From NCBI GenBank assembly GCA_963556255.1, contig OY744610.1, forward strand, positions 11,998,477-12,062,476: a DNA stretch of 64,000 nt. Direction: 5' to 3'. The stretch comes from Allolobophora icterica (Eukaryota > Annelida > Clitellata > Crassiclitellata > Lumbricidae). Within the stretch, counting starts at the first letter, position 1. Every line of letters starts with the position of its first letter. The position numbers and the translations under genes are program-made. The notes under the pieces are model-generated. The model worked only from the letters and a program-made list of their open reading frames with translations. It was not told the DNA's origin and did not search any database. This document shows, piece by piece, positions 13,059-63,342 of this stretch.

Positions 13059-15935
13059 CTATTTGTTAATAATACGATGCTTTTGTAGAAGAAACCTGCG
13101 AATGATGTGTTCAAACGGAAGATTAGCTTTCTGAGCAGTAAATTCAATCATTGCTTCTGAATACGGAAGATTGGAGTCGATACCACATTTGAGTTTCAAA
13201 TATCTTGCAAGGAAATGTCTTCCAACGAAATATTGACATTTAATGTAGTAGTAACATTGAAGGAAAGACGAGATCTCATTATGACGATCTTTCATAATTT
13301 CCGCAAAACAGCTTGCAAACATTGAATTTGCATTTAACACAGATTTCCTCAACTCGCCATTCAGAGTTGATAAATAGTAAAAGAGTGTGTGAAATCCAAG
13401 CAGCGACTGTACGTCTCCATCAAAAAAAGTGTCAAGTGGTGGCAACACTAAAACATGCGCCAATGAAAGTTCCTTCAAATCGCTCGGCAGATCAGGTTCA
13501 CGAAGAATTCTTTCACATAAATTCAACACTTCGTCGTATTGGCGACGCTTGTAAAGGTACAAAGCACGATAACAGTCGACAGTGTTGCACTGGATACCAA
13601 ACTCTTTGTGAATCGCATTGTAGAATGTTGCCAAATATTCTAAAGCATATTCCATTGAGGCATAAATTACATTTTCTTTGACTATAACAGGATTAACAGC
13701 AGTAGCTTCGATTTCTTCCAAACCATCTGTTCTGTGGTAAACGATCTGTCTTGTAGCATTGACACGCGTATCTGACTTCATCGCAGCAATACATTTCGGC
13801 TTTGTTAAAGCCTTCAGATATTCGTCCATAGGAAACACTGAATCAGGCAAATAATGATAAATATCGAAATGTTTGGATATTCTTTCGGTAGATAATACAG
13901 CTAAATAATGAACGAATACATTTGGTGAAAGACGAAGATCAAGCCAAAGCCGTCTTCCAATGTAATGAAGATTATTGTTTGTAAACTTCCTGTGAAGCAC
14001 ACACAATCCAACGATTCTTACGACATCGTCAATAAACAGCAAGCAACCTGCGTTGAGTATTTCCTTATCCTTTTGAGGAGTCTGATCTGTGAGGACTGCC
14101 AGGCAGAAACGTATTGCTTGTCGGTAATCTGATGTGGCAAAATGGAGAGCAGCAAGATAGGCCAAAGCTGCAGGTGCAATGCCGTTTGGTTTATTATCGA
14201 CGTATTCTAAAGCTTTTCTCAGAAACTCTTTTGACAAAACAGTAATGAGTTTAAATTCTGAACGGTTATTTGATCCAATTAAATTTTGCATGAGATTCTG
14301 AGCACGCAGAAAGTGAAACTGACAACTTTCGGCTGTGTACGGTTTCGGAAAGTTATGATACCAAGATCTTATAATTTTCGGTTGAATTGAAATTCCATTG
14401 ACCAATTCGACAAAGAGACTGCTATCCCATGAAATCTCTCCGCAACTTAAACCATATGCAGCTTCCAAAATATACAGAAGAATGTCACAGTATGTGAAAC
14501 ATGAGACGTTGTCTGCTGTGAGATTTGCCATTCTAATGTACATTGTAGGATTAATATGTAGTACATTACAATCAGTTCGTAAGTTCAGGCGCAGTCCTGA
14601 ACTTGCCCCCATTTTAATTATAGGACGACAAATTCCGTGAGAAATTGCGAATATGCCAGAAAACAACCAATCAGCTGTTTGCAATTTCTTCTCTCTCCGA
14701 AGTTCATCGAGAGGCAATAAAAAATCCATAAAATGTGGGAATACTTCCAATGACCCTTCGACTTCGAAATTTGTCTTAATGAATGACAGTATGTAATTTC
14801 CTATAAACCAATTACAATGAATGCCAGAATTGCGGAACTTATTTAGTTGTTTCTGTGTTTTGTCAAGCGTTGTGGAGCTCAATGGTTCATGAAATAAATT
14901 TGCTTCAGGAATAAAATAGTTCGGACAGTATCTCCTCTTTAGCCATTCCGAAAGCTTTCGTAACAAATCACTGCAGATCGCAATAACAGAAGATGGGTTC
15001 CACCATTCCGGTGACATCTCTTCACAAGTCCATAACATCAACGTCTTTAAATGATACGGACAGAGAACCTCATCTTCCTTTGGACAATCCTTTTGTATTA
15101 ATTCTCTTTTGGCGAAGATTCTCAGCAAGTGATAGACAATCTGCTGAACTTGAGTCAAACTCTGCAGTAAAATAACCTCCGCGACTGAGAATGAAAATCT
15201 CCACTGATATTTATCGTCTCTGCAAGAACGATGCTGCGCGCATACAACATGACACCCATTTTGTACAACTTCCGAGATTGTATCGGTTGTCGGCCATCCG
15301 AATTTTCTTGGTCGAATGGGCCAATTTTGTGCTTCCTTAGGCCACTGAGGGCTCCACACGTTGTTTACCGCATCAAATCCAATATAACCCTCCTCCTTAA
15401 ATTTACATTTAATGGATGGACCTTGAGCAGAGGTTAGCAAAGTTGCTCCATACACCGTACTAGTGAAATTCGACTTTGAAAGAGTAGATATATTGAAAGT
15501 TTCGTAGCCGTCTAGATGAGCTGATCGTCTACATTCGTACTTTTTATGCTTCCAATTATAGTTCATTTCGCCCCAAAATTGTACTCGAACAAAACCTGGG
15601 TAATTTTCGTATGATTCAATCTTGTAGCACTTGATCGTATCTGCTAGGCCACTCATATCATTTGTCAACACTGGGAAGTCGCCACTGAAGGCCAGCTCAT
15701 CAGTGTTGGAAATTAATGAATCAGTGTCGTCAATACATGACTTCAGTGGTCGGATATAGAACTCCGCGGCGCTGCCACACAAGATCATATATTCTGTTGG
15801 TGCAGTGTCTATGGTCACCATTAAGTCATGCATGCGATCAGTAACAAAAGAAACCGACTTTTGGAGCAATTGACATGTACTAACGATGCACTCTGATACC
15901 ATTTCTTCATTCGATTTTTCCGCATATTCCGTCAT
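13059..15935 (-). CDS. Mab-21/cGAS-like nucleotidyltransferase with TPR-like extension (cGLR copy A)
   Basis: Intact 958-residue single-exon reading frame. The N-terminal ~370 residues match the Mab-21/cGAS-like fold: Gly-Ser of the nucleotidyltransferase loop at 54-55 (LCGSAAEFY), metal-binding acids at 70 and 72 (DDTD), a likely third acid at 188 (FDAV), PQWPKEAQNW at 196-205, WRFSFSVAE at 245-253, and the Mab-21 C-terminal signature LWTCEEMSPEWW to YFIPEANLF (301-348). The family makes cyclic dinucleotide-type second messengers on sensing nucleic acid or other ligands; the ligand here is unknown. Residues ~390-958 are helical with TPR-like pairs (588-616, 787-811). The ATG sits one base after a polypyrimidine-AG acceptor (TTTCTTTTAG), so a 5' UTR intron or upstream exon is likely. 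It is 1 of 3 near-full copies in this window. Confidence 0.9.
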   Translation of the reverse strand: MTEYAEKSNEEMVSECIVSTCQLLQKSVSFVTDRMHDLMVTIDTAPTEYMILCGSAAEFYIRPLKSCIDDTDSLISNTDELAFSGDFPVLTNDMSGLADTIKCYKIESYENYPGFVRVQFWGEMNYNWKHKKYECRRSAHLDGYETFNISTLSKSNFTSTVYGATLLTSAQGPSIKCKFKEEGYIGFDAVNNVWSPQWPKEAQNWPIRPRKFGWPTTDTISEVVQNGCHVVCAQHRSCRDDKYQWRFSFSVAEVILLQSLTQVQQIVYHLLRIFAKRELIQKDCPKEDEVLCPYHLKTLMLWTCEEMSPEWWNPSSVIAICSDLLRKLSEWLKRRYCPNYFIPEANLFHEPLSSTTLDKTQKQLNKFRNSGIHCNWFIGNYILSFIKTNFEVEGSLEVFPHFMDFLLPLDELRREKKLQTADWLFSGIFAISHGICRPIIKMGASSGLRLNLRTDCNVLHINPTMYIRMANLTADNVSCFTYCDILLYILEAAYGLSCGEISWDSSLFVELVNGISIQPKIIRSWYHNFPKPYTAESCQFHFLRAQNLMQNLIGSNNRSEFKLITVLSKEFLRKALEYVDNKPNGIAPAALAYLAALHFATSDYRQAIRFCLAVLTDQTPQKDKEILNAGCLLFIDDVVRIVGLCVLHRKFTNNNLHYIGRRLWLDLRLSPNVFVHYLAVLSTERISKHFDIYHYLPDSVFPMDEYLKALTKPKCIAAMKSDTRVNATRQIVYHRTDGLEEIEATAVNPVIVKENVIYASMEYALEYLATFYNAIHKEFGIQCNTVDCYRALYLYKRRQYDEVLNLCERILREPDLPSDLKELSLAHVLVLPPLDTFFDGDVQSLLGFHTLFYYLSTLNGELRKSVLNANSMFASCFAEIMKDRHNEISSFLQCYYYIKCQYFVGRHFLARYLKLKCGIDSNLPYSEAMIEFTAQKANLPFEHIIRRFLLQKHRIINK

Positions 15936-16031
15936 CCTAAAAGAAACACATCTCCATCCTAAAAATTCGTAACGATCATCATTATCGTCGTCAGAATCAG
16001 TAGTAACAGAATTCTAGTTATTACCCATATC

Positions 16032-34873: not shown

Positions 34874-35125
34874 ATGACGAAATTTTCTGGAAAAGTCGAA
34901 GGAAGAAATGGCATCCTGGTTGAGCAAATGTCAGTTGCTTCCAAATTCGTTTTCCTGTGTCTCCAATCACATGCAGGACTTAATCGCATCAGCGGACCTG
35001 CACCAAAAGACTATTTGGTTTTGTGTGGCAGCGCTGCCGAGTTCTATATCCGACCGCTGAATACATTCATCGGTGACACTGATTATTTATCACCCGGGGA
35101 TGATGAGCTGGCCTTCAGTGGCTGA
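34874..35125 (+). pseudogene. cGLR N-terminal fragment
   Basis: Reads MTKFSGKVEG, then a drifted helix, then LVLCGSAAEFYIRPLNTFIG and DELAFSG followed by a stop. This is the first ~85 residues of the cGLR family, including the Gly-Ser loop and the metal-binding Asp pair (DTD). It lies immediately upstream of near-complete copy B (start 35172) and ends just after the LAFSG segment. It is therefore a truncated tandem duplicate rather than an upstream exon of B; it lacks a donor site at its end. Confidence 0.8.
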
Positions 35126-35171
35126 TTATCATGATGACTTTGTAGAATTGAAATGTTTTAAAAAATCTAGG

Positions 35172-38108
35172 ATGACGGAATATGTGGGTAAATCCAATGA
35201 GGAATTGGCATCTGCGTTTATCGTTAGCACATGTCAATTGCTTCCAAAGTCGGTTTCAGTTGTCACGGATCACATGCGAGACCTAATCGCGTCATCGAGC
35301 CCTACACTGAAACATTACTCAATTTTATGTGGCAGCGCTGCGGAGTTCTATATCCGACCGCTGAATAAATGCATTAAAGACACTGATTTTCTAATCACCG
35401 AAGCTGACGAGCTTGCCTTCAGTGGCGACTTTCCAGTGTTGCCAAGTGATTTGAGTGGATTACCAGATAGGATAAAGTGCTACAAGATTGAATCATACGA
35501 GAGGTATCCAGGTTTTGTTCGATTACGAGTTTTAGGGGAAAAGAACTACAATTGGAAATATAAAAAGTACGAATTTAACCATGCAGATCTTACAAATGGT
35601 TACAAGGTGCTAAATATGGCTACCGCTGCAATTGAGTATTCGACTCTTACTCTCGCTAGAGATGCCATGCCAAATAGTGTTACTGGTCCAGCTATTAAAA
35701 GCCAAAAAGATGCATTTTATTATCTCGGAAGTGATACCGTCAAATGCTTGTGGTGCCCTCAATGGCCTAAAGAAGCGCAAGTGTGGCTTAAGCGACCTAG
35801 GAATAATGGTTGACCGACCATTGATACACGAACCGAGGTTATAGAAAATGGAAGTCATGTTGTCTACGTTCAGCATCGCTCTTGCAGAGACGATAAACAA
35901 CAGTGGAGATTTTCATTTTCAGTCGCAGAAGTAATCTTACTTCAAAGTTTTACTAAAATTCAGCAGATTGTCTATCATTTGCTGAGATTCTTCGCCAAGA
36001 GAGAATTAATACAAAAGAATTGTCCAAAGGAGGACGAAGTTCTCTGTAGGCCTACGTATCATTTAAAGACACTGATGTTATGGACTTGTGAAGAGATGCC
36101 ACCTCAATGGTGGAATTCAGCTTCTGTAATTTCGATCTGCTGTAAATTGCTACAAAAGCTGTCACAATTACTCAATAAGAGATACTGTCCGAACTATTTT
36201 ATTCCCGAAGCAAACTTATTTCAGAAACCGTCGAGTTCCACTATGCTTGTGAAGATTGAAAATCGACTTAATGAATTTAGCAATTCTGGAATACTTTGTA
36301 ATTGGTTTGTGGAAAATTACATACTCTCATTCATTCATACAAATTTCGAAGTTGAAACGATAACGGCTTATATGGGTTTTATAGATTGCATGCTGCCTCT
36401 CTTGGAATATTGGAAAGTGAATGCATCGGAATCATTGGATTTATTATTTTCTTTCACAATCGCATATTCCTATAAGGACAGTCGTCATGTAATAAAACGC
36501 GGGTTAAGTTCAGGACTGCGCTATACCTTCAAATTTGGACTTAATTCAAGATGTATTGAATCGAAGGTAGGTCTTCCAACAATAGAGAATGACTTGTGTT
36601 TCACGCACTATGACATGCTACTGAATATTTTGCATGCGGCATATGGTTTAGATTTTGGAGAGATTTCAAGGGATAGCAGTCTATTTGTTGAATTTGTCCA
36701 TGCAATTTCGATACAAACAAAAAGTGTAAGATCTAACTATCACAACTTTCCGAAAACATACGCTGCACAAAATATTCGGTTTCAATTCCTACGTGCTCAG
36801 GATCTCATGCAAAACTTAACTGGATCAAGTTGCCGTTCAGAATTTCAACTGTTGTCTCTCATGTCAAAACAGTTTCTTAGAAAAGCTTTACAATGCAACG
36901 ATTATAAATCGAACGGCATTATATCTGCAACTTTAGCCTATCTGGCTGCTCTCCATTTTGCCACATCAGAATACCAACAAGCAATACAATTATGCACGGC
37001 AGTTCCCGATGATCAGACTTCTCAAAGGGATAAAGAAACATTGAATGCAGGTTGTTTGTTGTTTATTGCCGATATTGCAAGAATTGTTGGATTGTGTGTG
37101 CTTCATAAGAAGATTACTGACAATAATCTTCACTACGTTTGCAGGCGGCTTTATCTTGATCTGCGTCTTTCACCAGAAGTGTTTGCTCATTACTTAACTG
37201 TATTATCTGCCGAAAGAATATCCAAACATTTAGATTTGCATCATGAATTACCAGATTCAGCATTTCCTAAGGACGAATATTTCAAGGCTTTATTAAAACA
37301 GAGGACATATTTAGTGATAGATATTGGGGCTTCAAGTTTGAATCACGTGATAGTTAAAGAAAGAGTTATTGATGCTTTAATGGGAATTGCATTAGAAAAT
37401 ATGACATCTTTCTACAATACGATTCGCAAAGACTTTGGTATCCATTGCAACACAATTGACTGTTATCGTGCTTTGTACCTTTTCAAGTGTGGTCAATATG
37501 ATGAAGTGTTGCATTTCTGTGGGCGAATTCTTCATGAGTCTGATCTGCAGAGCGATCTCAAGGAATTTTCATTTGTGAATGTTTTGCTGATGCCGCCTCT
37601 TGACTCATTTTTTGATGGAGACGTACAATCTTTGCTTGGATTCCACACAATCTTCTATTATTTATCAACTCTCAATAACGATATGTGGAAATGTAAATTA
37701 ACTGACGAGTCAACGATTGCACACTGGTTTGGTCACAATGTAGACTATAATGGGTGTTTAATCCCGGCTTCTCTTCAGTCGTTGCTTGGATTTCACACAC
37801 TGTTTTATTATTTGTCGAAGTCTGATTTAACTGCAAATTCAACGTTTGAAGACTGGTTTGCCAACTATGTGTACTTTTATAGGGATGAACTCTCATGTCT
37901 TCTTCAATGTCAGTACTCCATTAAAAGTCACTATTTTCTTGGAAGACATTTTCTTGCAAGATATTTGAAACTGAGATGTTACATCGACTGTAATCTTCAG
38001 TATTCAGAAGCATTGACTGAATTTGCTGCCGTTAAAACTAATCTTCCCTTTGAACACATCATTCGCAGGTTTATTGTACAAAGGCTTCGTGTCATTAAAA
38101 AGAATTAA
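35172..38108 (+). pseudogene. cGLR copy B, full length with one in-frame TGA
   Basis: A single frame from MTEYVGKSNEE to the stop at 38106-38108 encodes ~978 codons homologous end to end with copies A and C. The Gly-Ser loop (LCGSAAEFYIRPLN), DTD acids, third acid (SDTVK), WRFSFSVAE, LWTCEEMPPQWW and YFIPEANLF are all kept. One TGA (35811-35813) replaces the conserved Trp of the FGWPTTD motif, and the frame continues unshifted beyond it. Against A it has a ~25-residue deletion near residue 715-745 and an internal duplication of the SLLGFHTLFYYLS segment (about 37627-37820). Either a young pseudogene, a polymorphic null allele or a sequencing error. As in A and C, an AG (AAATCTAG) directly precedes the start. 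Confidence 0.88.
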
Positions 38109-46943: not shown

Positions 46944-47040
46944 ATGGGCGTCTGTGTCGGAAAAGACAAGCGAAATGAAAACGAAAGTAATCTTAAACAG
47001 CAGAAACGTAAATTAGAATTTTCTACAACTCGCCGAAGAG
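46944..47040 (+). CDS. Exon 1: MGVC acylation signal and basic stretch
   Basis: Encodes 32 residues, MGVCVGKDKRNENESN then a Lys/Arg/Gln-rich run (KQQKRKLEF, TTRRR), ending before a consensus donor GTAAGC in phase 1. Gly2 plus Cys4 plus nearby basic residues resembles dual-acylated membrane anchors. Confidence 0.7.
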
Positions 47041-50000
47041 GTAAGCGGAAACAAACAATTTTATTACTAACACTCAAACAGAAAACATCGACGAAAGCAA
47101 TGTAAAGATTGGACGAAATTTTGTTTGTTTCTCGGCAAACTTGAGGAACATGGTTTCAGTATTAGATCTCACACGTTTGCGGTTTGTTGTCACTTGCCTC
47201 GTTCAATGTCTCTTTGTAGGCAAAACAAATCAAACGATTTGGTATATTCATTAAGTTAGTTTGAAAACTGCAGAAATTTAGTTCACATTTAATAATAAAA
47301 GCAGTTTTAAATTTTCTAAATCTGTTTTCTAGTATTTAACTATTTTGAATGGTTTTGCTTTAAATGCAACAGATGAACAGAAAACAGATCCGTCTGGTAC
47401 AACGGTAGGATTGTGAACTATTTTTTAGCTAAGTAATATTCATTCATTCATTGTTTCATTCATTCATTTGAGAATTTATATAGCGCCCCTTACAGGGAGC
47501 TACTCAGAGGCGCTCTCGACTCTAGCAACATGTTTAACAACACAAACTCTCTGACGACCTCACTTGAAGCGAACATCGACTGATACGGAGACAATGGACC
47601 TTAAACCAATGCAGCTTCTCTCGCTGGTGACTGCCATCGTCTCACTGACTCTAAGCTTACTGCAACCAACTATTTTCACATTGCAGTCTCACATTTTCAT
47701 TACCCCGAAAAACAATGTGCCTTAGACTTAATTCAAGCTGCCCTCCTTAAATAATGTTCTATTTCAGTTAACAAATAAGCGCTGTTACTTCAGCGATGCT
47801 AATTTATACATCTTAGTAATAATTGTAACCTTAAAACCGTAAGCTTACGAAGTATCTTGCATGTTTGAAACTCACCTTTATCACTATCTTGTCATTGTTA
47901 ATTATTCCATTTATCATCAATGCTGGTGTTATTGAAATTTATCGTAGTCATTACCCATTCAAAGTCTGAAGCTCTGCCAACTAAATATACGATTCTTGGT
48001 GTACGAATATAATTCCCCTGCACGCAATGCCCCGGACATAATCCCCCGTACATAGTCTCCCCGGGCAGAATTCCCCATGCTTGGACATCATCCTTCAGGC
48101 TAAGATATAATCACCTCAAGATCAGCCAACTGAGTATGCTAAAATTACACATGGTAGCCTATCCAATAACATTCATAGCAATACTTTATTAATAAGAGTA
48201 TATTTTCAATTTGTTTGATAAGAAGGATATTATCTACGATTTGTTTCGTTCTAACACTTAGTCTAATAGTACAAACCAATGGAAAAGTTAATTGTGCCAT
48301 TTTCATCCCATGTTTGTAAAAGATATCCAAAAGCAAATGTTGTATCCAAGTCCGTGCAGCGTTTCTTGGATGGATTTCCTTTATCTCGCCGATCTTGGTA
48401 CAGCTGCAGCAAACGGGGCTGTAGCTGCTTGGCGTTGGCCTGACCCGCTTTTTGGGCAGCTGACCTTGCGAATCCTGCAATATCGCCGTGTTGACCATGC
48501 CCTCATCCTGCTGCAGCGCCCCTGTGAGCACCCATAGCGAGGGTGACTTTAGAACTGAATTACACTAAGAAGTCTTAAATTTATACCTGAATGACATTAA
48601 GAAGTCTTTTTCTACGACATTAACGACCTGAAACTACCAACAAAAACAGGGCAATTAAGGTTTATGAATTAAATGCAGAAATAGGCTAATTGCACAGAGG
48701 ATGGGTCTTGTCCTGGGGAATAATTATGTCCGACCCAAAATGGGAGGATATTTGTCCGGGGGATTTTGTCCAGGGGATTATGTTTTACAATCACGATTCC
48801 TGGGTGCAGAGATTGTCCTTCTATTCAATTTCCTTGTGAACTTAATCGCAAATTCATGCACACCTTCGTTTTTCCGCTTACACTCCACAACCTTTTGCAG
48901 GGTGAATGCAGTGTTGAAGATGGTGGACTGATTTTCTTACTTTTCAAGTTCTGTTTATCATTGCCTTTCTCTCTACTTTCTCAAATAGCCTTACATCGGT
49001 TACTTTAAGTTTTTGTATAAAGCTTTGTTCGAACAACTTGCGTCTTAATTTCTCCTTACCACTTCATCTATCTTTCAATCCTCCTTGTTTTTCTTTCGAT
49101 GACAGACTGTTGAATGGTGGAGTGATTTTTTCCGGTTCTGAATTATTTGTTGTAAGTGGTTTTGTTATATAATTTTGTGGATTGGGCTAATCACCAAGCA
49201 GTCAATATGCAGAAGAGTGCAACAGCTTCAGCAAAATATCCCTTTAGGAGGAAAATTATAGCTCAATATTCGGATTGCCTGTATCAACCATACATAAAAT
49301 ATGTCACTAATAACTAGCGATCATGGATAGAATGAGTTACCATTACAATGTGAGGTGTGAAAGATAAGAGAAAGGCGGTAATGATTGATAAACCAATAGG
49401 AAGAATAAGGAGAGGGAGAGAGCTTCTTTGAATTGGAACCAAACAAGGCCATATATATAAATTATTTAAGAAACCGACAGAATTTAGCGCAGAATAAACT
49501 CAATACAAGAGTTGCAAACTTCTGGACTACTATGAGTGACAGCACTGAAACAATGGATATCACTAATTTTTAAAATAACAGATTTCGATGCTGGGTAAGC
49601 TTACATCATGCAATTTGCAGTGGTTTAAAACCGGTTTAAAACCATGTTTTGCTAATCTATGTCCTTGGCCTACCGCATGCAATTCTAGATAAACTAATCA
49701 TAATAATTGTCATGTATAATCATCCTGTTTAAATATTGCTTCTTATCGCATTTCAGTTGTACAATCTTCCACTGGAGATGTTGGACGTTATCTTACAAAA
49801 GTCGCTTTTGCATTGGATATTGAATTCATCAACACAGCAGAGAGACGAAGAAGTTATCAAGTCTCTCATATCAGTCGACGTTTGCTTCAATCGAAGAATT
49901 ACCAGACAACGGTTCAAGAAGGCAATCTGGCCTTACCTGATGGGTGAGGTACCTTCCAAGCATCACATTTGAACTTAATTACATCAACCACAAGCGATTA

Positions 50001-52288
50001 CTTTGATCAAATATTCTAATATAATTTTAAAACTTTCAGAATGCTATTGTTGTAACGCATATCGTTTATTATCCAGACTCTTGATTCGGCGAATTTAACT
50101 GTCTTATAAAATGCCATCTTAAGCCAGTAACCTAAAGACACCAAAGTCAATAACAAAAAGCTTTCGCAATTAACCTAGGAATGCTTGCATAACAGAGTCA
50201 TCATGTGTGTGCACTTGCACACTTAAAAACCCAGCCGAAGGAGTAATATAAAGAAATTAGCAGTTCACAGTTTTCATAGTTCATGGACCAAGTGGCATCG
50301 AAGATGGACGGTGATATCGTCTGAGATCGATGCGACCGATAATGGTCCGCTTTGTATGGCGCTAGACACTGGGTGAGGTTACAGGGCGCATCGCCTTCTC
50401 TGTCAGCCCACAGGGTCCACTGATCACCCTGGTAGGCCCCCTAAAGCCATCTGTATCAGCGAACAACTGTCACTCACTTTTAGTGAGAAAGTTTTCTCAC
50501 ACTTTTCTGAAAGCATTTTCTCATATAGCAGAGCTACATTATTAAATGAGAATGAGGTGCGTGTGTTGAATTGCGCTGAAGAATTATTGTCGTAATGTAG
50601 CAAAGCTCAGTTATTATTAAAACGTAGTGCTATAATTGTTTTTTTTATAGATGTCTATGATAAAACCAAGAAAGAATCTGCAATTTTTATTAACAACCGA
50701 AATTATCTCTTAAAAAATATTCAACCAAATGACGAATTCATCGATTCGCTCTTTTCTCTCAACTGTATAAAGAAAGAAGAACGTAACTTCATTCAACGAC
50801 AACAGTCAACACGAGATAAGAACGCTCAACTTTTATACGTCGTTAGATCCTTCGACGCAACAAAGTTTTCAAGTTTCGTTAAATGTCTTCGACAAACGAA
50901 CCAAACGGATGTGGCAAGGATCGTCCAAAATGGAGGAGGTTCACAGTGCAAATCTCATTTAAGGGCTCAGTATTAGCATACTAGTGTCATAATTTTAATA
51001 TTAGATAATTATATAGGCCTACATCGAACGACATCAGGATCAGTGTGTGACCATAAGGTAATTCTGTATAATTAATTATGCCCAGCCGTGTTTAGTGTTA
51101 GTCATCGCATTAATTATTATGACATATCCAGTACTAGCATTGTTAATTCACGGAGTGGCTTTACGATACCGGAGTTATGAGTGGGCTCATATCAAAGGAA
51201 AGGGTACGGGTAGCTGGAACAAAAGGGAGTCAAAAGTGCCTATTCGCAACCTTGGGAAACGATGCTAGGATTTTAAACACAGTTTAAAATATTTTACTTC
51301 ACGTATTGGAACACGGTCTGCCGATTGCATGTTTATACATTGTATTGTATTGTATTGTATTGTATTGTATTGTATTGTATTCGGACATTTATAAAGCGCT
51401 TCTAGCGAGAGGGCAATTTAGAAGCGCTCCCTGTGCGAGGGACCCCGAGAGTAGAAACAAGTTTTAAGAAACTTAAAAGAGATTGAGACGTTACCTGAGA
51501 GAATAGAAGAACGAACGGACAGTGGAAGCTCATTCCAAAGAGCAGGGCCAATGGAACCAAAAGACCCAGATTGAGCCAGTGAAGTCCTGATACGGTCAAC
51601 CAGGAGGTCCAAACGGTCAAAGGAACGAAGAGGACGAAGAGGAGCAGCAGAGTGAGGGCGATGAATTAAGTCACATAAATATTTCGGAGCAAAACCAAGT
51701 TGAGCCTTAAAGATAAGGATGAGAACCATGACTTGGATGCGGGCAGAAAGCGGGAGCCAGTGTAGTTCTTCTGCCATAAAGGTGGTGATATGAGAGAATC
51801 GAGGAAGACGGGCAATTGGTTTAGGAGCAGCATTGAGAAAGGACTGAATAGGAGCAAGACGGACCACTGGACGAGAGGGATGCGCCACTCGCGATAATGA
51901 ACAAGTTTCATGTTTTCATCAAGAAGCCAACTTCTAGTTTAAGTTTTAATATGACCATTTTTCTTCGCTCATCCAACTTTTAGTTTTAGCTCTATTTTAA
52001 TCGCTCTTGCAGCAGCTCTAGTTTGAGCTATGTTTTCATAGAGAATCCAACTTCTAGTTTTAGTTAGCTTATATATTTGCATCGACCATCCAACTTCTAG
52101 TTTGAGCTCTATTCTCGATATTATGTGTAAATACACGATCGGCAGACCGTTTTCCAATGTGTGAAGTAGAGTAACACTAAACTCAGAAAGAACCACGTAT
52201 ATAGACGGTAATGAATATCAGTTCAGTTTCTAGGTAATCATACATGTTGTTCTTTTAGTAAAATTGCAGTTGCATAAAATAACACCTA

Positions 52289-52350
<62 letters not shown>

Positions 52351-54835
52351 TGCTTTTAGTTGTCATTAAAGTCGAAATTGTAACTTGTGGCACAACGTGT
52401 CCATCGTCCATAGACCCAAAGTTGCATCATCAAAGAATCAGCGACCTTCGAAACAGAACCGAACCAAGGTCACAAGAAACTGATAAAATCCTCAGCCAAC
52501 TGAAGGGCGAAGGCATAGAAATCCTCAACTCTCAAATGGATAGAGAGACTGTGGTCGTTTGGATCTGGTGTCAGTCACAAGAAGCTCTGGAAAATATTCG
52601 GAGGCTATACGAATCGAATCAACTGAGAGATATATTCTTGGGTGTTACAACTACTCAACATTCCACTTCTGAAAACTTCCAATCGAAAGTGATCAACACT
52701 GAAAGCAATCAATTTGAGAAACGAGTCGGCAAGTTCTTATGAATTCACCCGTCAAAAAAAATTATAAACATATAATCAACGTAATATGTTACACAACTTA
52801 GTTGAATGGAGTGACTGGGACAGCGGTAGTAAAAGAACAACAGGATAACGAGGTTGACAAGGAAGACCTTTGATACATGAGTGGATAGGAAATAAATAAA
52901 AACAGAGACTCGGAAATAGAGGCTGAACAGAAGACTTCTATATAGAGAGAAACCTCATTTACTGAAAGAACCGCTATATTAGTGTCAAGGTACGCACATC
53001 GCAGCCTATAGTATGAGTGAAAGTAAGACATGAAAATAAAGAAAGAGACGAGATTGGAGGACAGCCGTTCATAGGAAAGGTTGGCAAGGTAGAAAGGCAC
53101 GCAGCAGTCTGAAAGCGAGATTGAAAGTAAGTAGGCCTAATACAGGCGGAGAATGAGATGATGCACATACAGTAGAGATTGTAGCAGGTAGTCAAAAGGA
53201 TCTCGAGTAATTGGGACTTTGATGATGGACAGATATTTGAACATATAGTAAGCCATGAAAGATGAGAATGGATGGCAAGTAGATGGACATTTTGTCAATT
53301 GATTTTCCTTATAATAAAATCAGACAGGAATTGTTTGAAGTTAGTAGGTCGGCAGCGTGACACTTATCCAGCGAAAACGAGCATAAAGTCAGAACAAGAG
53401 AAGGACAATAATAAAGAGAATAATGCAGATCGACAGTTAGACTAATAGACAGGCCACATGTAGAATGCTGGAGCCATGCATAGAATCCATATCAGTCCTG
53501 AAGCAAGAAAGTTCAAAAGGAGAAGAGGTGCAGAAAACTGCATAGAACTTATTTTGGTTTATAGGATTGCAACAGTGAAGTTAGACTGAATAAGTTTTTG
53601 ACAGCTTCCAATGACGAACAAGATGAACAGTTGGAGATAAAAAGTGAGTAAGATGTAGAGGCAGTTACAAGTGGAAAACGATCGATGTTGAAAAGGCGGC
53701 GAATAAGATCAGCAGATGAACAGCAACAGTGAGAAGAACATTTATTTACAGATTAGCAGTGAGCTTCAAAAACAGCAAGTGAGATTAACAGCCATATGCA
53801 GATGAACAACGTTTGGCACACATTTAGAGAGGGCAGCGAGTAAGATAAATGAGCAGCAAATAAAATAAAGTAAATATTTTGAATAAATTTTATTATAAAT
53901 AAATGAGGAAAATATTAACAATCAGTTAATTATTATTGTAATTATATATTTTTATTTCAGTCGTGTGCCCGATTTCCATGAACTTTTCTGAGACAACATG
54001 GTTCAGAAAATCTGGAACTGTGCGTGGAGTGACTAAACTGCGAAATGAAATCTACGTCCTATCATTTTGTGGTTGGGGTGCCCAAGGTGTAATTCGTGCC
54101 TATGAGGATCGAAATCCATCAAGTCTTCTGAGGAGTATCAAACTGATAGATATTACATATCCGTGTGACATGGTCTCCAGTGAGAAGGAACATTGTCTCT
54201 ACATCTGCGACCTAGCAGAGGAATGCGTCTGGAAGATAATTAGAGAAAAACAAGAGAAACATAATCACATCAAATGGCTGACCATTGATTATAAACCACA
54301 TTCTCTGTCAATGTCCATCGATGGTCAGTTGTTGGTGGTCAATTATTTAATGCCCAGTCTGTTTATCTACGGGTCAAATGCACAACTCATTCGATCTATT
54401 CAGTTACCAAGACACCTGGCGCGACCTATTCATGCAGTGGAAACATCCATCGGGAATTTCATCATAATTAACGTGTGTTTAGAAAAGGAAGAGGAGGACG
54501 AGGAGGTGGGAGATAGTTGGTCAAGCGGGAGTAGACAGAAAACGAGGTGTGTCATTAGTGAGTTGACCAGAGATGGACAGATGGTCATCCGTCGTTTTAT
54601 TCCTTCCAATGAAACGGAAAAACTGATTAATACTTGCTATCTCTTCCTCGATTCAGCTGATCGGGTGTTTGTGACTGACTATACGAGTGGTGGAGTGATT
54701 CTCTTGGATTCCGATCTTAAATGGAATCGAATTCTTTGTACAATGCCGGAATGTGGACATGAATTTAGAACGTATTACGACGAAGAAAAGAAGCAACTGA
54801 TCGTCGGAGGATATGGAGTCATTGTTTACAGATAG
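46944..54835 (+). CDS. Six-exon gene: acylated N terminus, F-box-like, CARD, TRADD-N-like, beta-propeller
   Basis: Predicted exons: 46944-47040, 47373-47404, 49757-49943, 50651-50938, 52360-52641, 53961-54835. They total 1761 nt, i.e. 586 residues plus stop, with every junction in phase and GT/AG borders. The product begins MGVCVGKDK (Gly2/Cys4, candidate myristoylation plus palmitoylation; strong Kozak ACAATGG). An F-box-like segment, a CARD, a TRADD-N-like segment and a C-terminal NHL-like propeller follow. CARD and TRADD-N mediate homotypic assembly in cell-death and innate signalling; propellers usually bind ligands. It is therefore a likely membrane-tethered immune adaptor or receptor, by inference. 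Weak points: donors of exons 4 (GTTCAC) and 5 (GTGTTA) are non-consensus, and both exons read into stops if unspliced. Microexon 2 (32 nt) is supported only by phase. Confidence 0.72.
47373..47404 (+). CDS. Exon 2: 32-nt microexon
   Basis: Acceptor AAATGCAACAG, then codons for DEQKTDPSGTT (first base from exon 1), donor GTAGGA. It links the phase-1 end of exon 1 to the phase-0 start of exon 3. Transcript data are needed to confirm it. Confidence 0.5.
47462..47530 (-). repeat. LINE-type 3' tail in intron 2
   Basis: AATTTATATAGCGCCCCTTA and CAGAGGCGCTC are the complement of the GCGCCTCTG...GCGCTATATAAAT tail of the L2-like LINE. Confidence 0.55.
48010..48790. mobile_element. Inverted-repeat-bounded insertion in intron 2
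   Basis: The left end repeats CCCCGGACATAATCCCCC-type motifs; the right end has the complement (GTCCGGGGGATTTTGTCCAG). The interior is a non-conserved ~600 bp. I could not fix the exact termini or target duplication. Confidence 0.45.
49757..49943 (+). CDS. Exon 3: F-box-like domain
   Basis: Begins after TCGCATTTCAG and ends before GTGAGG. It encodes 62 residues: LYNLPLEMLDVILQKSLLHW, then an acidic helix and SLISVDVCFNRRITRQRFKK with AIWPYLM. The LP.E+L..IL start and a later SL..V...F.R pattern resemble an F-box with a widened middle. F-box assignment is tentative. Confidence 0.6.
50651..50938 (+). CDS. Exon 4: CARD
   Basis: Starts after TTTTTTTATAG. About 95 residues: an H1-like FINNRNYLLKNI, DEFIDSLFSLNCIKKEERNF (helices 2-3), QSTRDKNAQLLYVV (helix 4), KFSSFVKCLRQTNQTDVARI (helices 5-6). 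Spacing, the charged S.RDKN.+LL block and the LR.TNQ.D.A..+ ending are typical of CARDs. The exon may end at GGAGGAG before GTTCAC, or read on to a TAG at about 50974. Confidence 0.85.
51340..51381. repeat. TTGTA pentanucleotide microsatellite
   Basis: About eight units, next to the 3' end of a minus-strand LINE, consistent with expansion of its poly-ACAAT tail. Confidence 0.9.
51381..51905 (-). mobile_element. CR1/L2-like LINE C-terminal remnant in intron 4
   Basis: The frame encodes IQSFLNAAPKPIARLPRFSH, ELHWLPLSARIQVMVLILIF, APKYLCDLI, and FGSIGPALWNELPLSVRSS, i.e. the conserved C terminus of CR1/L2-type ORF2. It ends with a tail AAGCGC...TTTATAAATG complement. Only the last ~170 codons are present. 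Confidence 0.85.
51906..52122. repeat. Degenerate ~50-bp tandem repeats
   Basis: CATCCAACTTCTAGTTTTAG and variants occur four times, each followed by an A/T-rich spacer and CTCTATTTT or similar. Confidence 0.75.
52291..52348. repeat. AT dinucleotide microsatellite
   Basis: Pure AT run just upstream of the exon 5 acceptor (TTCTGCTTTTAG). Confidence 0.95.
52360..52641 (+). CDS. Exon 5: TRADD-N-like domain
   Basis: Begins VIKVEIVTCGTTCPSSIDPK, then a helix (HHQRISDLRNRTE), QETDKILSQLKGEGIEILNS, and the strand-helix end ETVVVWIWCQSQEALENIRR with LYESNQLRDIFL. The two-layer alpha/beta pattern with a VV.I.C.S.E....+..+Y.S..L++I ending resembles the TRADD N-terminal domain described in metazoan and prokaryotic immune proteins (Kaur, Iyer, Burroughs and Aravind). 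If unspliced, the frame runs on to a TGA at 52740-52742. Confidence 0.6.
52742..53960. other. Intron 5, no gene recognised
   Basis: AG-rich sequence with many GAAGNNNGAGA-like motifs but no coding or repeat structure that I can identify. It ends in the acceptor TATTTTTATTTCAG. Confidence 0.5.
53961..54835 (+). CDS. Exon 6: NHL-like beta-propeller
   Basis: About 290 residues from VCPISMNFSETTWFRKSG to GGYGVIVYR. Repeating blade motifs: VTKLRNEIYVLSF, PCDMVSSEKEHCLYICDLAE, CVWKI, PHSLSMSIDGQLLVV, SLFIYGSNAQLIRSIQLPR, FIIINV, CVISELTRDGQMVIRRF, LFLDSADRVFVTDYTSGGVI, LLDSDLKWNRILC. The D..G.++..+ and DS.DRVFV.D patterns are those of NHL/TolB-like six-bladed propellers. An acidic insert (KEEEDEEVGDSWSSGSRQKT) breaks one blade. 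The whole domain sits in one exon ending with TAG. Confidence 0.85.
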
Positions 54836-55312: not shown

Positions 55313-55609
55313 CACTGCGTTGTAAATATCTAAAGAAGAAGTGGCTAGAAAATCTCATCCGCGGTTACCAAGGCAACATCATCGTCACAGCAACTTAAGA
55401 ACTTCGCGGACTTTGGAGTGGATGACAACATCGGCCAATCTTCTAAATCTGTTTGTGAAGAGAGTTTTAGCAGAAGGAGTGGATGAAGTGATATACAGGG
55501 CAATCCTAACAGCTCTTAACAAGAAGAACCTAAGCACCTGTTCATGCAAGATGTCACTGAGTGAACACAATGCATAAAGGTAACGTACTGGTGTAGCAAG
55601 ATGTTTCCG
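55313..55609 (+). repeat. 297-bp direct repeat, copy 1
   Basis: CACTGCGTTGTAAATATCTA to GTAGCAAGATGTTTCCG is repeated identically at 55766-56062. It contains a short open frame with MTTSANLLNLFVKRVLAEGV that I cannot assign. Confidence 0.92.
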
Positions 55610-55765: not shown

Positions 55766-56062
55766 CACTGCGTTGTAAATATCTAAAGAAGAAGTGGCTA
55801 GAAAATCTCATCCGCGGTTACCAAGGCAACATCATCGTCACAGCAACTTAAGAACTTCGCGGACTTTGGAGTGGATGACAACATCGGCCAATCTTCTAAA
55901 TCTGTTTGTGAAGAGAGTTTTAGCAGAAGGAGTGGATGAAGTGATATACAGGGCAATCCTAACAGCTCTTAACAAGAAGAACCTAAGCACCTGTTCATGC
56001 AAGATGTCACTGAGTGAACACAATGCATAAAGGTAACGTACTGGTGTAGCAAGATGTTTCCG
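55766..56062 (+). repeat. 297-bp direct repeat, copy 2
   Basis: Offset 453 bp from copy 1, with no differences seen. The 156-bp spacer between copies is unique. Confidence 0.92.
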
Positions 56063-59368: not shown

Positions 59369-62248
59369 CTATTTGTTAGTAATACGATGCTTTTGTAGAA
59401 GAAACCTGCGAATGAGGTGTTCAAACGGAAGATTAACTTTCTGAGCAGTAAATTCAGTCATTGTTTCTGAATACGGAAGATTGGAGTCGATACAACATTT
59501 CAGTTTCAAATATCTTGCAAGAAATTGTCTTTCAATGAAATAATGACATTTCGTGGAGTAATCACACTGAAGAAAATACGAGATATTACTATACGGAGGA
59601 CCTTTCATAATTTGGGCGAACCAGTGCGCAAACGTTGAATCGGCAGTTAGCTGAGATTTGCGCATATTATCATTCAGAGGTGATAAATAATAAAAGAGTG
59701 TGTGAAATCCAAGCAGCGACTGTACGTCTCCATCAAAAAAAGTGTCAAGCGGTGGCAACACTAAAATATTCGCAACTGTAAGCTCCTTCAAATCGCTCTG
59801 CAGATTAGGCTCACGAAGAATTCTTTCACAGAAAAGCAAAACTTCATCGTATTGGCGACACTTGTACAGGTACAAAGCACGATAGCAGTCAACTGTGTTG
59901 CACTGGATGCCAAACTCTTTGTAAATCGCATTGTAGAATGTTGCCAAATATTCTAAAGCATATTCCATTGAGGCATAAATTACATTTTCTTTGACTATCA
60001 CAGGATTAACCGCAGTAGCTTCGATTTCTTCCAAACCATCTGTTCTGTGGTAAACGATCTGTCTTGTAGCATTGAAATGAGTATCTGACTTCATCGCAGC
60101 AAAACCTTTCGGCTTTGTTAAAGCCTTCAGATATTCGTCCATAGGAAATACTGAATCAGGCAAATAATGATAAACATCGAAATGGTTGGATATTCTTTCG
60201 GCAGATAATACAGCCAAATAATGAACGAACACATCTGGTGAAAGACGAAGATCAAGCCAAAGCCGTCTTCCAATGTAATGAAGATTATTGTTTGTAAACT
60301 TCCTGTGAAGCACACACAATCCAACGATTCTTACGACATCGTCCATAAACAGCAAACAACCTGCGTTCAGTATTTCCTTATCCTTTTGAGAAGTCTGATC
60401 TGTGAGGATTGCCAGGCAGAAACGTATTGCTTGTCGGTAATCTGATGTGGCAAAATGGAGAGCAGCCAGATAGGCCAAAGCTGCAGGTGCAATGCCGTTC
60501 GATTTATAATCGACGTATTCTAAAGCTTTTCTCAGAAACTCTTTTGACAAAACAGTAATCAGTTTAAATTCTGAACGGCTATTTGATCCAGTTAAATTTT
60601 GCATGAGATCCTGAGCTTGCAGAAAATGAAACTGGCAACTTACGGCTGTATACGGTTTCGGAAAGTTATGATACCGAGACCTTATAATTTTCGGTTGCAT
60701 TGAAATTGCATTGACCAATTCGACAAAGAGACTGCTATCCCACGAAATCTCTCCGCAACTTAAACCATATACAGTTTCCAAAATATACAGAAGAATGTCA
60801 CAGTACGTGAAACATGAGACGTTGTCTGCTGTGAGATCTGCCATTCTGATGTACATTTTAGGATTAATATGTAGTACATTACAATCAGTTCGTAAGTTCA
60901 GGCGCAGTCCTGAACTTGTCCCGACTTTAATTATAGGACGACAAATTCCATGAGAAAATACGAATATGCAAGAAAACAACCAATCAGCTGTTTGCAATTT
61001 CCTCTCTCTCCGAAGTTCATCGAGAGGCAAGAGGTAATCCATAAAATGTGGGAATACTTCCAATGTCCCGTCGACTTCGAAATTTGTCTGAATGAATGAC
61101 AGTATGTAATTTCCTATAAACCAATTACAAAGAATGCCAGAATTGCGGAACTCATTTAGTCGCTTTTCAGTCTTGTCAAGGATTGTGGAGGCCGATGGTT
61201 CATGAAATAAATTTGCTTCAGGAATGAAATAGTTTGGATAGGATTTCCTCTTCAGCCATTCTGAAAGCTTTTGTATCAACTCGCTGCAGATCGCAATAAC
61301 AGAAGATGGGTTCCACCATTCCGGTGACATCTCTTCACAAGTCCATAACATCAGTGTCTTTAAATGATACGGACAGAGAACCTCATCTTCCTTTGAACAA
61401 TCCTTTTGTATTAATTCTCTCTTGGCGAAGAATCTCAGCAAATGATAAACAACCTGCTGAACTTGAGTCCAACTCTGAAGTAAAATAACCTCCGCGACCG
61501 AAAAAGAAAATCTCCACTGCAGTTTATCATGTCTCGAGTCACGATGCTGAATGTATACAACGTGACAACCATTTTGTAGAACTTCCGAGATTGTATCAGT
61601 TGTCGGCCATCCGAATTTTCTTGGTCGAATGGGCCAATTTTGGGCTTCTTTCGGCCACTGAGGGATCCACATGTTCATAACCGCATCAAATCCAAGACAG
61701 CCATAAGCATCTGATTGACATTTAATTGCTGGACCCTGCGCAGAGTTTCGCAAAGTTTGTCCATACACCGTACTAGTGAAGTTCGTCCTTGAAAGAGTAG
61801 AAATATCTAACGCTATGCAGCCGTCTAGAAGAGCTGTACGCTTAAATTCGTAATTTTTATATTTCCAATTATAGTTCATTTCGCCCCAAAATTGTACTTG
61901 AACAAAACCTGGGTAATTTTCATATGATTCAATCTTGTAGCACTTGATCGTATCTGCTAGGCCACTCATATCATTTGGCAACACTGGAAAGTCGCCACTG
62001 AAGGCCAGCTCATTAATTTCAGAAATTAAGGAATCAGTGTCGTCAATACACGACTTCAGTGGTCGGATATAGAACTCCGCGGCGCTGCCACACAAGATCA
62101 TATATCCTGTTGGTGCAGTTTCTATGGTCACCAGTAAGTCATGCATGCGATCAGTAACAAAAGAAACCGACTTTTGGAGCAATTGACATGTACCAACGAT
62201 GCACTCTGATACCATTTCTTCTTTCGATTTATCCGCATATTCCATCAT
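59369..62248 (-). CDS. Mab-21/cGAS-like nucleotidyltransferase with TPR-like extension (cGLR copy C)
   Basis: Intact 959-residue single-exon frame, clearly paralogous to copy A. All core motifs are kept: Gly-Ser at 54-55, DDTD at 69-72, FDAV at 187-190, PQWPKEAQNW, WRFSFSVAE, LWTCEEMSPEWW and YFIPEANLF; the FGWPTTD Trp lost in copy B is present. TPR-like helices lie near 588-616 and 787-811. A polypyrimidine-AG (TGTTTTATTTAG) precedes GATG, so a 5' UTR intron or upstream exon is likely, as in copy A. Differences from A cluster at residues ~130-190 and ~855-915. Expected role: cytosolic sensor making a nucleotide second messenger, ligand unknown. An alternative is a catalytically active Mab-21 family member with a non-immune role. 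Confidence 0.9.
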   Translation of the reverse strand: MMEYADKSKEEMVSECIVGTCQLLQKSVSFVTDRMHDLLVTIETAPTGYMILCGSAAEFYIRPLKSCIDDTDSLISEINELAFSGDFPVLPNDMSGLADTIKCYKIESYENYPGFVQVQFWGEMNYNWKYKNYEFKRTALLDGCIALDISTLSRTNFTSTVYGQTLRNSAQGPAIKCQSDAYGCLGFDAVMNMWIPQWPKEAQNWPIRPRKFGWPTTDTISEVLQNGCHVVYIQHRDSRHDKLQWRFSFSVAEVILLQSWTQVQQVVYHLLRFFAKRELIQKDCSKEDEVLCPYHLKTLMLWTCEEMSPEWWNPSSVIAICSELIQKLSEWLKRKSYPNYFIPEANLFHEPSASTILDKTEKRLNEFRNSGILCNWFIGNYILSFIQTNFEVDGTLEVFPHFMDYLLPLDELRRERKLQTADWLFSCIFVFSHGICRPIIKVGTSSGLRLNLRTDCNVLHINPKMYIRMADLTADNVSCFTYCDILLYILETVYGLSCGEISWDSSLFVELVNAISMQPKIIRSRYHNFPKPYTAVSCQFHFLQAQDLMQNLTGSNSRSEFKLITVLSKEFLRKALEYVDYKSNGIAPAALAYLAALHFATSDYRQAIRFCLAILTDQTSQKDKEILNAGCLLFMDDVVRIVGLCVLHRKFTNNNLHYIGRRLWLDLRLSPDVFVHYLAVLSAERISNHFDVYHYLPDSVFPMDEYLKALTKPKGFAAMKSDTHFNATRQIVYHRTDGLEEIEATAVNPVIVKENVIYASMEYALEYLATFYNAIYKEFGIQCNTVDCYRALYLYKCRQYDEVLLFCERILREPNLQSDLKELTVANILVLPPLDTFFDGDVQSLLGFHTLFYYLSPLNDNMRKSQLTADSTFAHWFAQIMKGPPYSNISYFLQCDYSTKCHYFIERQFLARYLKLKCCIDSNLPYSETMTEFTAQKVNLPFEHLIRRFLLQKHRITNK

Positions 62249-63342
62249 CCTAAATAAAACACATCTCCATTCTAAATCCCCATCATTATCATCTTCAGAA
62301 GCAGTAGTTACAGAATTCTAGTTATTACCCATATCACGCTAAAAATCACCATCACACTCCCAGTTCGACCAATAAAGTTTAGTTGGCTGTCTACTTTCAG
62401 CTAAGCATTTATTTGATGAAGTTTCCGACTCTAACACAACGAATAACAGTCATCATTGTTGCTCAATCAATCAACTAATTCTCGTTTATTCTTCAAGCAA
62501 TCTGGCAAAGAACGCAACTTGGTGCATGGTAAGCACTGGCGGCAATCTTGTTTGACAGGTGGGGAGACACTTTTGAACTGATCTGGTGAAGACAGAGTTT
62601 TGAACTGATCTGCTCAAAAAGGAGGTCCAAACATTTTCTCGCGCTCACGCGCCAAAAAATTTTTTGAATGTTTTTTGGTTTTTTCAAAATTTGGGGGTCA
62701 AATGTATGGTGTGTCCCCCACAGTTAAAGGTGGGGTCTTGCCCCTCGACCACCCTAGATCGCCGCCCAAAATGGTAAGCTAATTGTTATGTGAGGTGGAA
62801 GTGAGAATAAGCTGTTTAACAATTGAGGCTAATACGAAAGTTTGCGATGTGAGGTGTCTATTAGTTTTGTTTGAATGAAAACATTTAGTAAAACAGGTCT
62901 ACAGAAATACACACTTGCATAATCTCCCTTCTCTGCTTATAGGCCTACTTATTTATCTCACCTGCTTTCTCCAAAGTATTATGACTTTGACCAAGGTTTC
63001 ACTTGAAACGACCGTAGATCCATTTCTTGTGCATTATGATAATACCGCTATAGAAGTCATTGGATTAAATTCGCTCACTGGATGTCCATGATGGAACTGG
63101 AACCAGAATGGTATTCAGTTCTCGGTCTTTTTCTGTTCCGTTCCATTTGTAAATTCCATGATGTCGTTTAGGTCAAGGAGAAAGTCCTATTTTGTCGGAT
63201 TACTTTGATGTTACCGGAATCAGAACTTCCCGCAGCCTGACTCAGATTTCAAGGGCCTCAGAGGTCTAAACTTTGGCATCAGAGAAGCAGGGCAGTCCAT
63301 TGAGCATTCCTGAGAGGGAGTCAGTAGTTAGAGTATATTTGG
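62249..63342. other. 5' flank of cGLR C
   Basis: Aligns with 15936-17900 minus the hAT-type insertion. It may hold the promoter and a non-coding exon. A donor-like GCAG/GTGAGATA occurs on the minus strand near 62957, but the copy A counterpart lacks it. Confidence 0.4.

Follow-up and report, generated by a model that had tools for sequence, protein, structure and literature searches.

The window analysed here is a stretch of 64,000 nucleotides from Allolobophora icterica (GenBank assembly GCA_963556255.1, contig OY744610.1, positions 11,998,477 to 12,062,476, forward strand). The gene at 46944-54835 of the window belongs to a large animal gene family that has expanded within its lineage; copies of the exon array were found on many contigs, and their splice sites and phases are conserved. 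We put at roughly 60% the probability that this is an expanded family of CARD recognition proteins with an NHL propeller diversified on one face, the function being read from sequence. In each encoded protein, a conserved segment on the N-terminal side (exon 3) would be followed by a CARD (exon 4), by an alpha/beta domain that is probably optional (exon 5) and by an NHL propeller at the C terminus (exon 6).

For the genome search, 1.118 Gb on 328 contigs were searched with the propeller exon, and the best 135 of 1,223 candidates were scored. At least 156 matches were obtained (split matches count twice), and those listed lay on 13 contigs (C1, C2, C3, C5, C6, C7, C9, C11, C12, C14, C15, C19 and C20). 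Among the matches listed, three contained one internal stop each and the remaining ones were open; the closest copy (98% identity) was located on the same contig, approximately 0.87 Mb away. For comparison of gene structure, 20 paralog loci were fetched with about 9 kb of upstream sequence (the 19 ranked directly after the window and one ranked lower). Of the 21 loci (window included), 14 had the exon-3 segment, CARD, exon 5 and propeller one after another on a single strand. Exon 5 preceded the propeller in 20 loci, and a CARD was present in 17. Within the stretches taken, L025 contained the propeller only, L011, L012 and L018 contained exon 5 and propeller only, and L016 and L019 were without exon 3. 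The exon-3 match of L014 was a 34-residue piece on the opposite strand. Absent exons may lie farther upstream, since the stretches stop about 9 kb upstream. Exons 1 and 2 recurred in L010 and L030, with a weaker exon-1 match in L028; for the 98% paralog L009, neither was found in a 4.1-kb stretch that runs from upstream into its exon 3. Additional partial copies of the exon-5 domain were located between exon 5 and propeller at L017:1726-1963 and L024:3118-3404. On viral contigs, 85 pattern matches were obtained, with no relative among them.

The preliminary description had joined six GT/AG-bounded pieces of the + strand into one gene. All six were present in the window (46944-47040, 47373-47404, 49757-49943, 50651-50938, 52360-52641 and 53961-54835 for exons 1 to 6, respectively), and together they gave 587 codons including the stop. 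When donor and acceptor sites were enumerated within narrow ranges, 4 of 1,800 combinations yielded an open frame (572, 576, 583 and 587 codons). Because of these four open combinations, frame agreement alone says little, and recurrence in paralogs was the stronger test. The chain of pieces recurred in paralogs, with one border, the 3' border of exon 5, proving wrong. Exon 1 contained the start codon (MGVCVGK...) and ended in phase 1 at the donor GAG/GTAAGC; both the exon and its donor were kept in L030. Exon 2 (32 nt, phase 1 to 0) encoded a short linker and was likewise kept in L030, and the linker ahead of exon 3 in the protein relative P0002 resembled it. Exon 3 encoded the conserved segment LPLEMLDVILQKS...ITRQRFKKAIW, and its junction with exon 4 was seen in P0001 and P0002. 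Exon 4, the CARD exon, had symmetric phase 1-1 and the donor GGAG/GTTCAC. At the listed acceptors, AG was present for each of exons 3 to 6 in the paralog copies, and the CARD donor GGAG/GT was present in 17 of 17 copies.

For the exon-5 border, 19 copies were readable, as L027 was unreadable up to the donor. The donor originally assigned (GT at 52642) had a GT at the equivalent position in 5 of these copies, compared with 19 of 19 for a donor-like G/GYAAGT at the 52729 equivalent (16 GC, 3 GT), and was rejected. A simple donor score was low for both the 52642 site (0.65) and the CARD donor (-0.48), so single-site scores decide little. Coding conservation of exon 5 extended through a tail to INID.NQFKKTV-G-K, where the conserved donor-like site stands, and the glycine codon (GGC or GGT) and lysine codon (AAG) at this place were shared by all readable copies. 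From this codon choice and the conserved G/GYAAGT, exon 5 would comprise 52360-52728 (369 nt, phase 1-1) with a GC-type donor GCAAGT at 52729-52734 (+), the use of which is predicted from conservation (basis of the corrected exon: 57 relatives, the predicted model and the donor comparison). The corrected frame has 1,848 nt, i.e. 616 codons or 615 residues plus stop. According to a passage of PMC2490688, GC donors are enriched in alternatively spliced genes. With exception of the 5-6 junction, the gene model is well supported.

Two public protein relatives were informative on splicing. P0001 (531 residues, on a 1,884-base contig) joined exons 3, 4 and 6, i.e. exon 3, CARD and propeller. P0002 (368 residues, on a 1,408-base contig) contained an N terminus followed by exons 3, 4 and 5. 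Both were taken as probable transcripts, as the predicted junctions were crossed without introns. Since exon 5 and the propeller are not combined in either of them, we infer the 5-6 junction. Exons 5 and 6 might instead be alternative ends, with a short form (exon 3, CARD, exon 5), a long form (exon 3, CARD, propeller) and a rare or absent full chain. In line with this, exon 4 was joined straight to the propeller in P0001, P0002 stopped after exon 5 (KTV-VGQLN-stop), exon 5 and propeller occurred together in no protein among P0001-P0037 and 32 of P0038-P0094, and the 1-1 phase of exon 5 means that skipping preserves the frame. This end of P0002 could stem from read-through of a different kind, or from splicing of the conserved site to a further exon. 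Against alternative ends, the donor-like site after exon 5 is kept in all readable copies in a phase matching the propeller acceptor; conservation does not extend to the stop codon that follows the donor. Furthermore, an exon start like VGQLN was found once only (L010) in 20 loci with a strict pattern, and P0001 and P0002 may come from other paralogs or species. We consider alternative ends a possible arrangement, though one with the odds against it.

The propeller is encoded by exon 6, which includes the stop codon and probably forms six blades (six units were counted by eye from the consensus). No Pfam model was matched by exon 6 of the window alone. Pfam NHL was matched above cut-off by P0005 (3.8e-7) and P0013 (1.3e-8), and below it by P0001. 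A profile of 16 propeller sequences matched PknD (9.6e-7), Brat (2e-4), TRIM71 (0.013) and TRIM2 (0.35). The beta-propeller of the preliminary description was supported by the PknD and Brat matches and by P0005 and P0013, and was identified as NHL type.

For analysis of constraint, the ratio of nonsynonymous to synonymous substitution rates (dN/dS) was determined pairwise between copies (exon 3, n = 15 including the doubtful piece of L014; CARD, 17; exon 5, 20; propeller, 21; one exon-3 pair and one exon-5 pair yielded no value). Median values were lowest for exon 3 (0.31) and CARD (0.41), the more constrained parts, and rose further for exon 5 (0.57) and then propeller (0.67). Within the propeller (21 copies), the loops assigned to one face had values of 0.99 (b-c) and 1.01 (d-a), against 0.32 (a-b) and 0.60 (c-d) for the other face and 0.53 for the strands. 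Mean loop entropy (35 sequences) was 2.08 (b-c) and 1.90 (d-a) versus 0.71 (a-b) and 0.88 (c-d); the long acidic loop of blade 4 (entropy 1.76) was excluded from the b-c figures. None of 100,000 permutations reached the entropy contrast between the two sets of 11 loops each. One conserved and one highly variable, or hypervariable, side of the propeller suggests a set of inherited recognition proteins. The immune role put forward in the preliminary description, which we still infer, is strengthened by the family expansion and this one-sided variability. In a comparison of the window with L009, exon 5 had zero synonymous differences while the CARD had a synonymous distance (dS) of 0.11, which suggests gene conversion.

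For the proposed recognition proteins, the variable propeller face would bind varied ligands of microbial, viral or self-derived origin. Ligand binding would expose or cluster the CARD, which could then nucleate a filament or pair with other CARD proteins (caspases, adaptors) and thereby start signalling for cell death or defence. The output might be tuned by including or skipping exon 5 in frame. A more specific version would be a germline-encoded set of considerably more than a hundred CARD receptors, with the NHL face as variable ligand surface and a signalling mode set by regulated in-frame exon 5 via the GC donor common to most of the copies compared; this version is tentative and less credible than the general one.

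Several points weigh against recognition as the function of the family. Loop borders were placed by eye from the NHL motif while the consensus was visible, and the contrast between faces is therefore partly circular. Pairs in the dN/dS comparison are not independent, and a dN/dS of about 1 is as consistent with relaxed constraint as with diversifying selection. Distances between copies agreed for CARD and exon 5 (r = 0.89) and disagreed for exon 3 and propeller (r = 0.06; 14 loci, L014 dropped), which suggests conversion or reassortment. The 20 loci taken are among the copies most like that of the window, and broken copies are under-represented because only the best propeller candidates were scored. 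The same material could be read as a family of fast birth and death without recognition role, in which surface loops drift unconstrained. The variable loops, with a dN/dS that is not clearly above 1, and the loci without some parts in the stretch taken (L011, L012, L018 and L025) would fit such a family. However, three stop-bearing propeller rows were present among the matches listed (best candidates) and the others were open, splice sites were kept, and one propeller face was conserved while the other varied. Birth and death without recognition is regarded as unlikely.

The CARD was borne out by the Pfam search: exon 4 matched CARD (PF00619) over positions 6-83 of 85 with E 2e-8 and 34.6 bits (cut-off 23.9). 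A CARD profile matched known CARDs among PDB sequences at E 0.01-1. In the joined protein, CARD alone was above the Pfam cut-off, and no RING, B-box, kinase, NTPase, FIIND or protease was detected. CARD domains were strongly expanded genome-wide (769 candidates, best 150 scored, many on C3, C11 and C2). Among eight loci from the CARD search, only L007 matched exons of the gene family of the window, by a weak CARD match, and most of the genome's CARD-search loci may belong to other families.

Exon 3 had been described as F-box-like. By eye, it contains LP.E.LD.IL and later R.F...IWR.L, which resembles the F-box pattern. The resemblance gained no clear support from profile searches: F-box models were matched by 0 of 18 exon-3 sequences (window included), and F-box-like_2 gave one weak match (E 0.075) among 18 longer sequences. 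An exon-3 profile searched against PDB sequences (E up to 10) matched no F-box, the sole match being coumarate-CoA ligase (E 0.89). NHL propellers occur in TRIM-NHL ligases, and together with the pattern seen by eye and the one weak match in a longer relative this would fit a ubiquitin-ligase substrate receptor, in which exon 3, as a divergent F-box, would bind Skp1, with substrates held by the propeller and immune complexes reached through the CARD. The absence of F-box matches among the exon-3 sequences and the coumarate-CoA ligase as sole PDB match make such a receptor rather improbable.

For exon 5, the predicted fold was beta-alpha-beta-beta-alpha (mean predicted local distance difference test score, pLDDT, 65), with three strands and helices and a fourth strand that was not confident. 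Predicted elements were a strand at 2-8, helices at 19-30 and 38-49, strands at 52-60 and 63-70, and a helix at 73-84. This predicted fold is compatible with TRADD-N, as had been suggested for exon 5, and is not specific to it. In Pfam searches with 33 exon-5 sequences, TRADD-N (PF20694) was matched by 1 (E 0.11), Anoctamin_N by 11 (best E 0.0015) and Sigma70_r1_1 by 16 (best E 0.00095). Across the whole genome, PF20694 gave one match, in a 993-residue open frame that is presumably NCOA6. With hhalign, exon 5 did not score clearly above shuffles when compared with either human TRADD or the presumed NCOA6; the local alignment with TRADD was collinear around strand 3 and helix 2 and was insignificant. 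An exon-5 profile had four matches to PDB sequences (E 0.12 to 0.65), none of them TRADD, and a second profile search had none. In the structure comparison no TRADD chain was among the matches listed, which excludes nothing. In passages of PMC8195603, TRADD-N is described as an RRM-like two-layer fold with a four-stranded sheet and kinked helices, and with a uS motif that lies between strands 2 and 3. In exon 5, strand 3 was preceded mostly by Q-T or E-T (R-E-T in the window). The uS motif was not found in the 33 exon-5 sequences (Thr in 30, Ser in 1), and a tiny residue before this place occurred in none. The assignment to TRADD-N was left without clear support from PF20694, hhalign or the uS motif.

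The acylated N terminus of the preliminary description also did not hold as a family trait. The window, L030 and P0002 have Gly as residue 2, whereas L028 has Cys (MCAFAGNQ) and P0017 and P0018 have Asp (MDASARK); the whole MGVCVGK was kept in L030. A TRADD-like membrane-tethered adaptor with exon 5 recruiting TRAF-type partners, as first proposed, is least likely of all: the predicted elements are compatible with the RRM-like kinked-helix fold given for TRADD-N in PMC8195603, and MGVC starts the window copy and L030, but exon 5 had no significant TRADD-N match, other Pfam models matched more of its members than PF20694, the uS motif was missing before strand 3 and Gly2 varied.

In the surroundings of the gene, three Mab-21/cGAS-like genes with CGSAAEFY...DTD were located at 13059-16013 (-), 59369-62317 (-) and 35061-38108 (+), flanking the CARD gene. 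Of three stretches compared with Pfam, 59369-62317 and 35814-38105 contained a Mab-21 domain that passed the cut-off, and 35061-35810 gave no match. A single in-frame TGA (35811-35813) lies in the 35061 copy. A direct repeat lies just downstream of the CARD gene, with frames 55326-55577 and 55779-56030 of identical 83-residue translation, 453 bases apart. Intron 4 holds a putative reverse-transcriptase-like remnant (51418-51915, -), judged from the translation of the frame.

If the recognition reading is true, NHL propellers would be added to the scaffolds that animals diversify for recognition, and would be coupled directly to a CARD. The exon array supplies defined gene models for a family that is easily broken up by exon-by-exon annotation. 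With NHL propeller proteins (Brat, TRIM71, TRIM2 and the PknD sensor domain), the gene shares an NHL-type propeller by profile, but the joined protein has no RING, B-box or kinase in Pfam. With NOD1, CARD8, Apaf-1 and caspase-9 it shares the CARD, but no NTPase, FIIND or protease was found in Pfam, and the sensing part would be the NHL propeller; the C-terminal end of Apaf-1 is formed by WD40 propellers. No literature on F-box, CARD domain and beta-propeller combined was found in a search that left most subscription-journal papers outside. Lineage-specific expansions with death-fold, TRADD-N and beta-propeller domains, i.e. DED-TRADD-N-WD40 in Branchiostoma and WD40 versions in Crassostrea, are described in passages of PMC8195603; NHL and F-box are absent from its main text. 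As far as these passages describe them, the expansions resemble the family in having a death-fold domain, a second domain, a variable C-terminal propeller and a large expansion, here seen as genomic exon order. They differ in that the family has a CARD instead of a DED, an NHL instead of a WD40 propeller and an extra conserved exon-3 segment in front, and in that their middle domain is TRADD-N, whereas for exon 5 the predicted fold is compatible with TRADD-N without being specific. A version that combines CARD and NHL with this set of exons is not described in these passages of PMC8195603, while the overall design is already published.

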